From contig NZ_JAGE01000001.1 in assembly GCF_000526495.1 (NCBI RefSeq), positions 3,034,001 through 3,098,000 of the forward strand: a stretch of 64,000 nucleotides of DNA, written 5' to 3'. This stretch comes from Ruminiclostridium josui JCM 17888. Its GTDB lineage: Bacteria; Bacillota; Clostridia; Acetivibrionales; DSM-1351. A program made the translations under genes and the position numbers. Shown piece after piece: positions 26,212 to 39,365 of the stretch. Each line of letters starts with the position of its first letter. Position 1 is the stretch's first letter. The notes under the pieces are model-generated. The model was not told the origin of the DNA, did no database searches, and saw only the letters and a program-made list of their open reading frames with translations.

Positions 26212-26388
26212 TTACCTTCTGTTAAATCCGCCATTAAAGCTTTTCTGTGATGCCTTCTTAGCTCTTCTGCAATCAGGACATCTAGCTGGTTCATTAGTAA
26301 ATCCTTTTTCAGCATAGAATTGTTGTTCGCCAACCGTAAATGTAAAAGTTGCACCGCAATCTTTACAAGTAAGAGTCTTATCTTCCAT
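26212..26388 (-). CDS. Small zinc-ribbon protein (zf_Tbcl-like)
   Basis: 58 residues, read directly from the minus strand starting MEDKTLTCKDCGATFTF. Two CxxC knuckles, C8/C11 and C37/C40, form one zinc ribbon. The middle FTVGEQQFYAEKGFTNEPAR matches the small probable zinc-ribbon family found widely in clostridia and related bacteria. The basic C-terminal tail (RRAKKASQKSFNGGFNRR) suggests RNA or DNA contact (inference). GGAGG lies eight bases before the ATG. Function unknown. The 340 bp between its start and tRNA-His are A/T-rich and hold only the tRNA promoter. Confidence 0.85.
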   Translation of the reverse strand: MEDKTLTCKDCGATFTFTVGEQQFYAEKGFTNEPARCPDCRRAKKASQKSFNGGFNRR

Positions 26389-26847: not shown

Positions 26848-28815
26848 CTACTTGTCAGAGTTATTATTGTTATACTCAATCATTAAGTCGGGATTATGTT
26901 TTTTTCCCATCTTGTGTCTTGCTTTGCGATTTTCAACAGTATCAAATATTATTGAAAAATCGTAGTCAGGTGGATACAACTCACTGGCAGGCACGTGGAG
27001 CTTTATTCTTTTGTGAGGGATAAGCTTTTTTTGGCCTTTAATCTGAACACCTATTTTGCCATACTCATTGGCTTTTTGATAGACCAAACCCAATTCTTTC
27101 TGGGGGAAGACCATAACACTGTCTCCTATGTTAAATTTGTTGCTTCGGTTTTGAGGTACAGATTTTTTTGGAGTTTCCTTAATTAACACAGGAGAGCCTT
27201 GGCCTGACATAATTTCAGTTTGCTTTTCCTTTTCGATAGCCCTTAAGAAAGATTCATGACTTTCTCGGATATAAGTTTTGCCGATGCTGTACTCCTTATA
27301 GGCAGCCTCATAAGCAAGTCTGAGAAGATGGGCAGGAAAACCTAGCCTTTTTGCAATGTACAGGGCACAGCTTTCTCCGGCTTCACCAATTTCAAGTTTA
27401 TATAATGGTTTTAGACTCTCTTTGTCAAAAGCCATTCTAGCATTAACAAGTCCGGGTGTATTTCTAGCATAGTCTTTTATTTCAGGGTAATGAGTAGTTG
27501 CCACAAAGAGGCAGCCTTTGTTTTTTAGTTCTTCCAGAATTGCTGTGGCTATACCCATTCCTTCTGCAGGGTCGGTTCCTGAGCCTACCTCATCCAAGAG
27601 GATAAGACTTTCTCTCGTAGATTGCTTTAGAATATCATTAATGGTTGTTATGTGTGCTGAAAACGTTGATAAATTTTCTGTAATGCTCTGACCATCGCCA
27701 ATATCACACAAAATCACATTATGCATTGAAAATACACTTCCCGTTTCAGCAGGAACATGAAGTCCGCTTTGAGCCATAATTGAAAGCAATCCTACAGTTT
27801 TAAGGGCAACAGTTTTACCTCCTGTATTTGGGCCTGTTATAACAACTCCTCTGGTTTTATTACCGATTTCAAAGTCAAGAGGTACACATTCTGACTGATT
27901 GAGAAGAGGATGCCGTCCGGATTTAATAGAAATCCTGCGGTTTATATGGATTTCAGCTGCATTTGCCTTCATTTGAGCAGAAAGTTTGGCCTTGGCAAAA
28001 TAAATATCTAAAGTTTCCATAATATCCACATTGGTTTTAATCACCGGTAATTGCTCATCTACTAATGAGGTCAGAGTATATAGGATTTTTCTTTCCTCAT
28101 TCTCTTCTTCAACAGTAAGGTTTGATATATCATCCTGTAGTTTGCGAACAACAGAAGGCTCTATAAAACATGTTCCTCCTGTAGCCGAGGTTTCTATCAA
28201 AGAACCTGCTACCATGTTTTTATATTCTTTTCTAACTGGCAGCACAAAATGCCCATTCCTCATAGAAACAAAACTGTCTGCAAACCATTCCTTTTTACCT
28301 CTTAAAATACTTTCGAGTTTAGAGCGTATTTGCTGATGGGCATTATCCTTTTTCCTACGTATATCTTTCAGTTTTGGTGAAGCAGAATCATCAACGCGAC
28401 CATTTCTTATTGAACCCTCAATTTCTTCACACAAGTCGTTAAGAGCATCTATTGAGTTTCCATAATAAGCAATATCATTCCCAAGGCTTTCTGCCCTTTT
28501 TAGATATGATTTCATGCGTCGGCAAGCCAGAAGAAACTGTGAGACTTCTTCAAATTGTTCAGGAACAAGCATCGCTCCTTTGGCACATAAATCAAGAATT
28601 TTATCAAGCTCGTTCATTGAAGAGAGAGGGGGAGTACCCAAGCTTTCAAGAAGCCTCTTTGAATCAGTGGTTTCCTTCATTCTTCTTTTACATTCACTTT
28701 CGCTCATATATGGTTCAAGCAGTGAAAGTTTATCTTTAGCTTTCTGGGAAACGGCATTTTCCACAAGCATTTCAATTATTTTGTTAAATTCAAGTGTTAT
28801 AGCATATTTGTTCAT
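26848..28815 (-). CDS. MutS2-like ATPase lacking the Smr nuclease domain
   Basis: 655 residues; full MutS2 proteins have about 780-790. A helical core/clamp region (about 1-300) is followed by the MutS ATPase: Walker A GPNTGGKT at 328-335, the STFSAHITTINDI signature, LILLDEVGSGTDP (Walker B) and ATTHYPEIKDYA. A linker with a KOW-like segment (FNIGDSVMVFPQKELGLVY) follows, then the protein ends at MIEYNNNNSDK just where the Smr domain would begin. The end is clean, next to a terminator, so this looks like a natural short form. MutS2 proteins act on branched DNA or on collided ribosomes; without Smr it probably senses or remodels rather than cuts (inference). Preceded by a long leader RNA. Confidence 0.88.
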   Translation of the reverse strand: MNKYAITLEFNKIIEMLVENAVSQKAKDKLSLLEPYMSESECKRRMKETTDSKRLLESLGTPPLSSMNELDKILDLCAKGAMLVPEQFEEVSQFLLACRRMKSYLKRAESLGNDIAYYGNSIDALNDLCEEIEGSIRNGRVDDSASPKLKDIRRKKDNAHQQIRSKLESILRGKKEWFADSFVSMRNGHFVLPVRKEYKNMVAGSLIETSATGGTCFIEPSVVRKLQDDISNLTVEEENEERKILYTLTSLVDEQLPVIKTNVDIMETLDIYFAKAKLSAQMKANAAEIHINRRISIKSGRHPLLNQSECVPLDFEIGNKTRGVVITGPNTGGKTVALKTVGLLSIMAQSGLHVPAETGSVFSMHNVILCDIGDGQSITENLSTFSAHITTINDILKQSTRESLILLDEVGSGTDPAEGMGIATAILEELKNKGCLFVATTHYPEIKDYARNTPGLVNARMAFDKESLKPLYKLEIGEAGESCALYIAKRLGFPAHLLRLAYEAAYKEYSIGKTYIRESHESFLRAIEKEKQTEIMSGQGSPVLIKETPKKSVPQNRSNKFNIGDSVMVFPQKELGLVYQKANEYGKIGVQIKGQKKLIPHKRIKLHVPASELYPPDYDFSIIFDTVENRKARHKMGKKHNPDLMIEYNNNNSDK

Positions 28816-28918
28816 AATTATCCTCCTGTTATTAGCAGGCAGATAGGTGTGTCCAATCTGCGTGAAAATTTATTTTAATTAATGGGACACGAGCCATATA
28901 TATACGTTCACCAGAACA

Positions 28919-29204
28919 AATTAAAAAGCGTAACAGGAACAAACCCGTCACGCTTTGCTAAAATCATTTGAATACGGCTAATAACTATATATTAGTAAAA
29001 ATGGTTTTGAAGCATATCTGTAATGTACTGAACGTACGAAGCAGGTGTCCTAAGATACCAAAATAAAGGTATCTGTAATAAAAAAGGTACACTAAATAAA
29101 CAGGATTACGACCTGTTTAAGAAAAGAACCTTTTACAACTATTTAGTTGTTAATCACCTTTACAGATAATACTGACATCAAAACTTTCCTTCCATGTTAA
29201 AATT
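28919..29204 (-). ncRNA. Candidate structured RNA / attenuated leader upstream of mutS2
   Basis: Starts at a predicted promoter and ends at an intrinsic terminator (13-pair stem 28925-28956, loop TTTGTT, then T-run), about 285 nt with no ORF. The 5' domain folds as a three-way junction: P1 TATCTGTAA / TTACAGATA (29160-29168 with 29070-29078), P2 hairpin CAACT-AAAT-AGTTG (29136-29149), and P3 with outer AAAAGGT / ACCTTTT and inner AAACAGG / CCTGTTT. The P1 partner sequence is repeated at about 29015-29023, so a second, exclusive pairing is possible. No T-box motif and no riboswitch class I know. It is either a leader with conditional termination or a free small RNA. Confidence 0.5.
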
Positions 29205-29210
29205 TACTTC

Positions 29211-29240
29211 ATGATAGCATATGCCATTTAAAGTTGTCAA
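29211..29240 (-). promoter_or_regulatory. Predicted promoter of the mutS2 leader RNA
   Basis: On the minus strand, TTGACA (29240-29235), 18-bp spacer, TATCAT (29216-29211). Confidence 0.6.
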
Positions 29241-39068: not shown

Positions 39069-39109
39069 ACCTTTATATATGTGGTTTTAATAATATAATA
39101 CAATAGCAA

Positions 39110-39365
39110 TGATGGAGAAAAGTAAGCAAGAGACGAATACTTCAGAGAGAAGGTATCATCGGCTGAAAGTACCTTTATTATGCGACTTGCCCAAGTTCCC
39201 TCCGAAGCTGCAACTTTGAACCGTGATATGCTTTTATATCATTTGTAGAGGTTGCCGGTTAAAAGCCGTTACATTAAAAGAGAGTCCGGGTAAATTTATC
39301 CGGAAATCCGGGTGGTACCGCGAAGATATCCTTCGTCCCTTTATTGGGGGCGAAGGTTTTTTATT
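39110..39365 (+). promoter_or_regulatory. T-box leader (phenylalanine) of pheST
   Basis: Contains the invariant T-box sequence GGGTGGTACCGCG (39310-39322) followed by terminator stem CCTTCGTCCC / GGGGCGAAGG (39330-39356) and a T-run. Stem I begins near 39110 and has the AGAGA-type element. TTC in GAATACTTCAGAGA (about 39131-39133) is the likely specifier codon, matching Phe. Uncharged tRNA-Phe would favour the antiterminator and switch on pheST, as established for T-boxes. Confidence 0.92.

Follow-up and report, generated by a model that had tools for sequence, protein, structure and literature searches.

A uORF-containing leader upstream of an Smr-less MutS2 paralog in Ruminiclostridium josui: a likely ribosome-mediated attenuator

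A short MutS2 paralog and the leader that accompanies it

The window, i.e., the whole 64,000-nucleotide stretch of the Ruminiclostridium josui JCM 17888 genome analysed here (contig NZ_JAGE01000001.1, positions 3,034,001 to 3,098,000), carries on its minus strand a gene for a short MutS2 paralog, preceded by a structured leader that contains a short upstream open reading frame (uORF). From the promoter to the gene, its features are the following:

29211-29240, minus strand: sigma-70-type promoter TTGACA-18-TATCAT, with TG before the -10 element (11/12 matches)
29187-29193, minus strand: GGAAGGA, Shine-Dalgarno (SD) sequence of the uORF, read from the sequence; an SD-like element also precedes the uORFs of the homologs
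29143-29178, minus strand: uORF, ATG TCA GTA TTA TCT GTA AAG GTG ATT AAC AAC TAA (MSVLSVKVINN*), conserved across Bacillota with the same gene downstream, and with synonymous-codon conservation
29155-29168, minus strand: TATCTGTAAAGGTG, 5' arm inside the uORF and putative anti-antiterminator (from the MFE fold and P(uORF:D))
29070-29078, minus strand: first copy of TTACAGATA, in the region of the GATACC/GGTATC hairpin; not conserved
29015-29050, minus strand: switch strand D, made of GGACACCTGC, a hairpin GTAC-GTTCA-GTAC and the second copy of TTACAGATA (29023-29015); conserved partner of the uORF, complementary to downstream elements
28925-28956, minus strand: intrinsic terminator T1, 13 bp followed by a U-run (-18.9 kcal/mol)
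28903-28910, minus strand: TGAACGTA, complementary to TACGTTCA of D (29036-29029), an 8-bp match in the window strain
28885-28890, minus strand: GTGTCC, partner in the folds of either the GGACAC of D (29050-29045) or the RBS-near GGACAC (28854-28849)
28849-28854, minus strand: GGACAC, in the folds the 3' side of an RBS-proximal hairpin, which the switch is predicted to abolish
28822-28827, minus strand: AGGAGG, SD sequence of the MutS2-like gene, read from the sequence
26848-28815, minus strand: MutS2 paralog of 655 amino acids, with MutS core, ATPase, predicted SH3/KOW-like barrel and a new C-terminal tail

A first-pass annotation of this DNA had placed, between the promoter and a minus-strand terminator, about 285 nt of structured RNA without any ORF. 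Promoter and terminator are both where it had put them, at 29240-29211 and 28956-28925; the RNA from the promoter to T1 does measure about 285 nt, and the gene starts 110 nt beyond T1. The structure is real and conserved, the leader folding at an MFE of -82.4, versus -54.3 +/- 5.0 for dinucleotide shuffles (z -5.6). The absence of an ORF was a mistake, since the 11-codon uORF with its SD sequence lies at 29178-29143.

The protein scores 575 bits against TIGR01069 (cutoff 400) and matches MutS_V; its ATPase is of the MutS type only, and no HflX-type GTPase was found in it. Its best solved matches are the structures of Bacillus subtilis MutS2 on collided ribosomes (7qv3, E 8.9e-108; 8qpp), with which it shares a homologous core and ATPase (PMC10897456). 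Unlike B. subtilis MutS2, it is devoid of the Smr domain and of most of the coiled coil, and it carries a new C-terminal tail. In its predicted structure (mean pLDDT 80), the MutS core and the ATPase are followed by a disordered linker (509-558), by a five-stranded barrel in the position expected for KOW (566-608, pLDDT ~84) and by a helical tail. Among 22 short members, none matches Smr (0/22) or Pfam MSSS, two domains that are present in the canonical 802-residue MutS2 also encoded in the genome. In a tree, the 62 short proteins are set apart from the 14 canonical ones (support 1.0), and a C-terminal signature, L[YF]P..[YF]D...R[KR], is found in 59 of the 62 short proteins and in no canonical one. 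By these sequence comparisons, the window gene belongs to a distinct Smr-less family of MutS2 paralogs and is not the housekeeping MutS2. Protein searches found further members in the order, the class and the phylum. Downstream of the gene, at 26212-26388 on the minus strand, lies a small protein with a zf_Tbcl treble-clef domain.

The leader accompanies this gene. When used as a BLASTN query, it was matched in its own genome and in 10 others of the 60 searched, with the same gene every time; one extra match of 28 bases was discarded as chance. Upstream, the window group has prfC-tRNA-Gln-tRNA-Lys, other congeners have a lipoprotein-like gene and tRNA-His, and a second family has still other genes. 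Since these upstream genes differ while the leader stays, the leader belongs to the downstream gene. The earlier proposal of a leader making a MutS2-like gene conditional is supported in that the leader tracks the gene, the gene being the short paralog and not the housekeeping one. In two members (L082 and L027), the leader has an unusual length, with D or the gene start shifted by more than 100 nt and extra sequence between the uORF and the gene. A short MutS2 gene with its leader was also found on the 115-kb plasmid pHD01 of Paenibacillus sp. IHB B 3084 (L103:3977-5935), with an integrase nearby, and the unit can therefore sit on a plasmid.

The uORF and its pairing with strand D

We read the upstream sequences of 64 family members across Bacillota and assigned, by eye, a uORF in 63 of them. 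In a later check of the best four protein matches in plasmid records, a uORF was present in all four (MSVNVLN, MLGVVLN, MTTGVLN and MSVIVLL; records of Paenibacillus sp. pHD01, Cytobacillus spongiae, P. cellulosilyticus and Acetoanaerobium noterae). A promoter-like site with at least 9/12 matches stands at most 110 nt upstream of the uORF in 57/63 homologous leaders. Two main types were distinguished, i.e., type A, of 11 codons (MSVLSVKVINN, MSVSSVKVIFN, MSELSVMVINN, MSEVSVKVVFN, MSVLSVMVIIN), and type B, of about seven (MSVSVLN, MLGVVLN, MIEVVLN, MSESVIN, MSAVVLN); in a few members, the uORF has three codons (GTG AGT GTT stop) or at least 20. The three-codon form is seen in the distant members L061 and L094, in which these putative uORFs replace the leader peptide. 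Start codons are ATG in 50 cases, TTG in 7 and GTG in 6 (n = 63), and TAA, TAG and TGA are all used as stops. In the 41 tabulated leaders, codon 2 encodes Ser 28 times, by means of TCA, TCG, TCT, TCC and AGT, and lies outside the conserved helix described below, while the last codon encodes Asn 34 times, as AAC or AAT. This conservation through synonymous codons indicates, at the sequence level, that the uORF is selected as a peptide, and its translation is predicted. A run of one rare or regulatory codon was looked for in the uORFs and none was found, for which reason an attenuator responding to amino-acid starvation was rejected. One leader peptide, MSAYIFVVSSVLHSSAWMGA* (L093, family f189), contains IFVV, which resembles the IFVI arrest motif of ErmCL; an 11-nt match would allow the 3' part of this uORF to pair with the terminator itself.

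In both uORF types, the last codons pair with strand D, about 70-150 nt beyond the stop codon. The first-pass annotation had conceived the switch differently: TATCTGTAA (29168-29160), which falls within codons 4-7 of the 11-codon uORF, was to pair with either of two copies of TTACAGATA, the first of them closing a three-way junction. The two copies do exist, 55 nt apart and at the coordinates it gave (29078-29070 and 29023-29015), as does the GATACC/GGTATC hairpin. Pairing with the second copy is retained, its P reaching 0.71-1.0 in the free RNA of the window strain and four congeners and 1.0 in RNA cut before terminator 1. The first copy was rejected as a switch partner and closes no junction, P(uORF:first copy) being at most 0.01 in full leaders and this copy being mutated in close relatives (TTAACGATA in L005/L015, TTACCGATA in L017). 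For these two reasons, competition between the copies is confined to the window strain and some of its neighbours (nascent P 0.37 in L014). The conserved competition opposes the second copy to sequences farther downstream. Hence, a switch-like leader ending in a terminator is supported, and the particular pairings proposed for it are not.

The uORF:D helix was examined by a blind scan for an SD sequence followed by an ORF of 6-14 codons, with a Watson-Crick complement to its nucleotides 10-27 lying 60-160 nt beyond the stop codon. With complements of at least 8 nt, the scan retained 26/63 members, versus 2.3/63 after shuffling and 0/14 canonical MutS2 genes; at 9 nt, the figures were 19/63, 0.4 and 0. 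The annotation had proposed to look for compensatory changes in relatives, and the helix provides them: when 19 distinct type B arms are compared, both partners vary at 11 of 12 pairs, and the covariation reaches 0.45, versus 0.18 with the 3' letters shuffled and at most 0.15 with the arms slid, in a comparison whose arms were picked partly by complementarity, which favours the helix, a bias from which the blind scan is free. The hairpins between the uORF and D vary freely, while the uORF, its SD sequence, its stop codon and the uORF:D pairing are kept. Taken locus by locus, the longest-helix test gave P<0.05 in just 19/62 loci, and the case thus rests on the joint scans, in which the loci are related to one another and the P values not independent. 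Contiguous helices were used in these tests, since unrestricted duplex energies allow large internal loops and are too noisy for pairing between the uORF and downstream sequences.

Predicted refolding around the terminators and the ribosome-binding site

Most members have two intrinsic terminators downstream of D. In type B, the last one contains a uORF-like sequence that matches its own D (GAACAC/GTGTTC), and the matches between terminator and D take other forms in other species (GAACAAA/TTTGTTC, GAACAG/CTGTTC, GAACACC/GGTGTTC, GGACAA/TTGTCC). The mean helix between D and its own last terminator is 5.9, versus 4.2 (at most 5.1) with shuffled terminators and 5.3 with terminators swapped between loci (P 0.007). 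In the window strain, the 8-bp match between TGAACGTA and TACGTTCA is not conserved in L015.

We then folded the nascent RNA of 41 diverse leaders, cut just before the 3' arm of each terminator, with the uORF either free or masked as it would be by a ribosome. Masking raised the upstream pairing of the terminator 5' arm by 0.23 on average, with a rise of more than 0.2 in 38/74 cases and a fall in 2. A mask of equal size displaced beside the uORF gave a mean of +0.03 and a rise in 4/71, and when the leader was shuffled between the uORF and the terminator the mean was 0.00 (4/74 up, 4 down). The P of about 1e-9 attached to this comparison is not to be taken literally, the members being related. 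Such a response to masking is, in these models, the one expected of a ribosome-controlled antiterminator.

For the window, the models are less clear-cut. In the five congeners, window strain included, masking the uORF brings P(D:GTGTCC, 28890-28885) from 0-0.29 to 1.00 and the GTGTCC/GGACAC hairpin before the RBS from 0.30-0.92 to 0.00. T1 stays at P 1.0 at equilibrium with and without the mask in the window strain and four congeners, and masking lifts the nascent capture of its 5' arm only slightly in the window strain (0.01 to 0.12), the highest value being 0.46, in L016 and L017. Disruption of a terminator or RBS hairpin by D is thus predicted across the family and, in the window, at the RBS-proximal hairpin, which is a clearer predicted switch than T1. 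For the window, either T1 would be regulated kinetically, or T1 would leak and the RBS-proximal hairpin would be the regulated step.

A candidate ribosome-mediated attenuator and its rivals

From the anatomy of the leader, its association with the gene, its conservation at the peptide and pairing levels and its predicted refolding, we infer that this stretch is likely a ribosome-mediated attenuator, through which the stalling of ribosomes would induce a MutS2 paralog, itself a candidate ribosome-splitting factor. Transcription would start near 29204 and a ribosome would translate the 11-codon uORF. On normal completion, TATCTGTAAAGGTG would pair with D, the terminator(s) and the RBS-proximal hairpin would form, and the gene would be off. 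A ribosome held on the uORF would cover the 5' arm and free D; D would then pair downstream, hindering the terminator(s) and the RBS-proximal hairpin, and the gene would be expressed. The trigger would most likely be an antibiotic acting at the peptidyl-transferase centre or the exit tunnel. The unchanged T1 (P 1.0) at equilibrium in the window and the weakness of single loci were counted against the attenuator.

MutS2 splits collided ribosomes, and its loss renders B. subtilis hypersensitive to chloramphenicol, tetracycline and erythromycin (PMC10897456). The paralog probably splits stalled ribosomes by means of its ATPase, which would make tolerance to translation blocks inducible, as in the case of Listeria HflXr. 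The Smr domain helps recruit MutS2 to collisions, and its absence from the window protein counts against an attenuator serving ribosome splitting.

The leader shares with the erm, msrD and hflXr attenuators an SD-preceded uORF that appears selected as a peptide and of which some bases make one arm of a conserved switch helix; stalling on the uORF and induction of the gene are predicted by analogy with these leaders. The nearest parallel, HflXr of Listeria monocytogenes, is a duplicated ribosome-splitting factor under an attenuator with a 14-aa uORF (PMC6310831). The hflXr/rli80 system likewise has a constitutively transcribed leader, in which the anti-antiterminator overlaps with a short uORF and is accompanied by an antiterminator and a terminator; it differs by its target, an HflX GTPase and not a MutS2 ATPase, by its 14-aa RLR peptide, by its single terminator and by an induction that is proven in Listeria and predicted here (PMC6310831). 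ErmCL, the ermC leader (MGIFSIFVIS..., PMC13410324), is also a uORF whose stalled ribosome rearranges the mRNA, although it is longer, acts on the translation of a methyltransferase and has Phe at position 7, where the present peptides have Lys, Met or Thr. Compared position by position with MGIFSIFVIS, the window MSVLSVKVIN scores 21 in BLOSUM62 (P 0.001 versus its own shuffles), a likeness that we keep as a lead only because several type A peptides score non-significantly. MsrDL (MYLIFM), of six codons, arrests at the stop codon with erythromycin (PMC10314930). Very short, ended by UAA and letting RNA polymerase pass an intrinsic terminator upon arrest, it is close in size to the seven-codon type (e.g., MSVSVLN*), and it differs from the present leaders in sequence and in target (ABC-F). 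Finally, the toiL uORF of topAI in Escherichia coli senses several antibiotic classes via ribosome position, with a Rho-dependent and translational output and a toxin-antitoxin target (PMC12121999). The kind of mechanism is already known. Neither the target family nor its leader peptides nor the switch strand that they share turned up in Rfam or in the open-licence papers that we searched, in which MutS2 with a leader peptide, attenuation or a uORF is not reported.

The main rival concerns the trigger. The uORF could sense the general state of translation (slow elongation, collisions, amino-acid shortage) instead of an antibiotic, and, by clearing the ribosomes held on its own uORF, MutS2-short would possibly end its own expression. 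The target does come from a family acting on stalled ribosomes (PMC10897456), toiL responds to five or more classes of translation stress (PMC12121999), and the diversity of the uORF sequences fits a non-specific sensor. However, the uORFs have no run of one rare or regulatory codon, and their Ser, Val and Asn positions are kept at the amino-acid level, which suggests a role of the nascent chain; we regard general stress as an unlikely trigger.

A mainly translational attenuation in the window strain, in which T1 would leak and the uORF ribosome would control only the GTGTCC/GGACAC hairpin, would account for the five congeners, where the predicted switch is complete at this hairpin and T1 is unchanged. 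On the other hand, other subgroups have a second U-run terminator at that place instead, their terminator 5' arms respond to uORF masking, and the SD sequence of the gene is just partly inside a hairpin, all of which makes this reading rather improbable.

A ligand-binding riboswitch or another structured cis-element, with an incidental uORF, would agree with the strong fold (z -5.6), the alternative pairings and the terminator; it is very improbable in view of the codon-level constraint on the uORF, of intervening hairpins that vary freely while the uORF, SD, stop and uORF:D pairing are kept, and of Rfam. Indeed, at gathering and permissive E-values, Rfam gave no relevant match in the window leader or in 16 homologous loci, the ZTP riboswitch that it placed downstream of one gene being unrelated. 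Rather than a ligand, a ribosome on the leader ORF is most likely the signal. As side observations, a ZMP/ZTP riboswitch flanks the MutS2-short gene at L059:3923-4005, and a T-box leader (RF00230, 124 bits) lies at 39100-39343 on the plus strand of the window. That the leader works by itself as a small RNA ending at T1, the MutS2-like gene having a promoter of its own, is scarcely credible despite the promoter of the leader and a strong T1 that the folds of the window predict in either state, the element following mutS2-short across families with differing upstream genes and D having complements past T1, up to the RBS; the RNA acting alone, as the annotation had also envisaged, is thus unlikely to be its main function.

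The likely attenuator described here, as part of an Smr-less MutS2 family that is nearly always behind a leader-peptide switch, suggests a reserve, inducible ribosome-splitting response in many Firmicutes. Genes that carry DNA-repair names in annotations ("endonuclease MutS2", "DNA mismatch repair protein MutS") thereby acquire a function open to experiment; their leaders supply a large natural set of very short candidate arrest peptides (seven codons or fewer), and the family is a possible source of intrinsic drug tolerance. More tentatively, and as a possibility to which we do not quite commit ourselves, inducible Smr-less MutS2 ribosome-splitting factors may be widespread in Bacillota, each under the control of drug-stalled ribosomes on a co-evolved leader peptide, and may form a new intrinsic antibiotic-tolerance system, occasionally plasmid-borne, whose protein may also clear its signalling ribosome.
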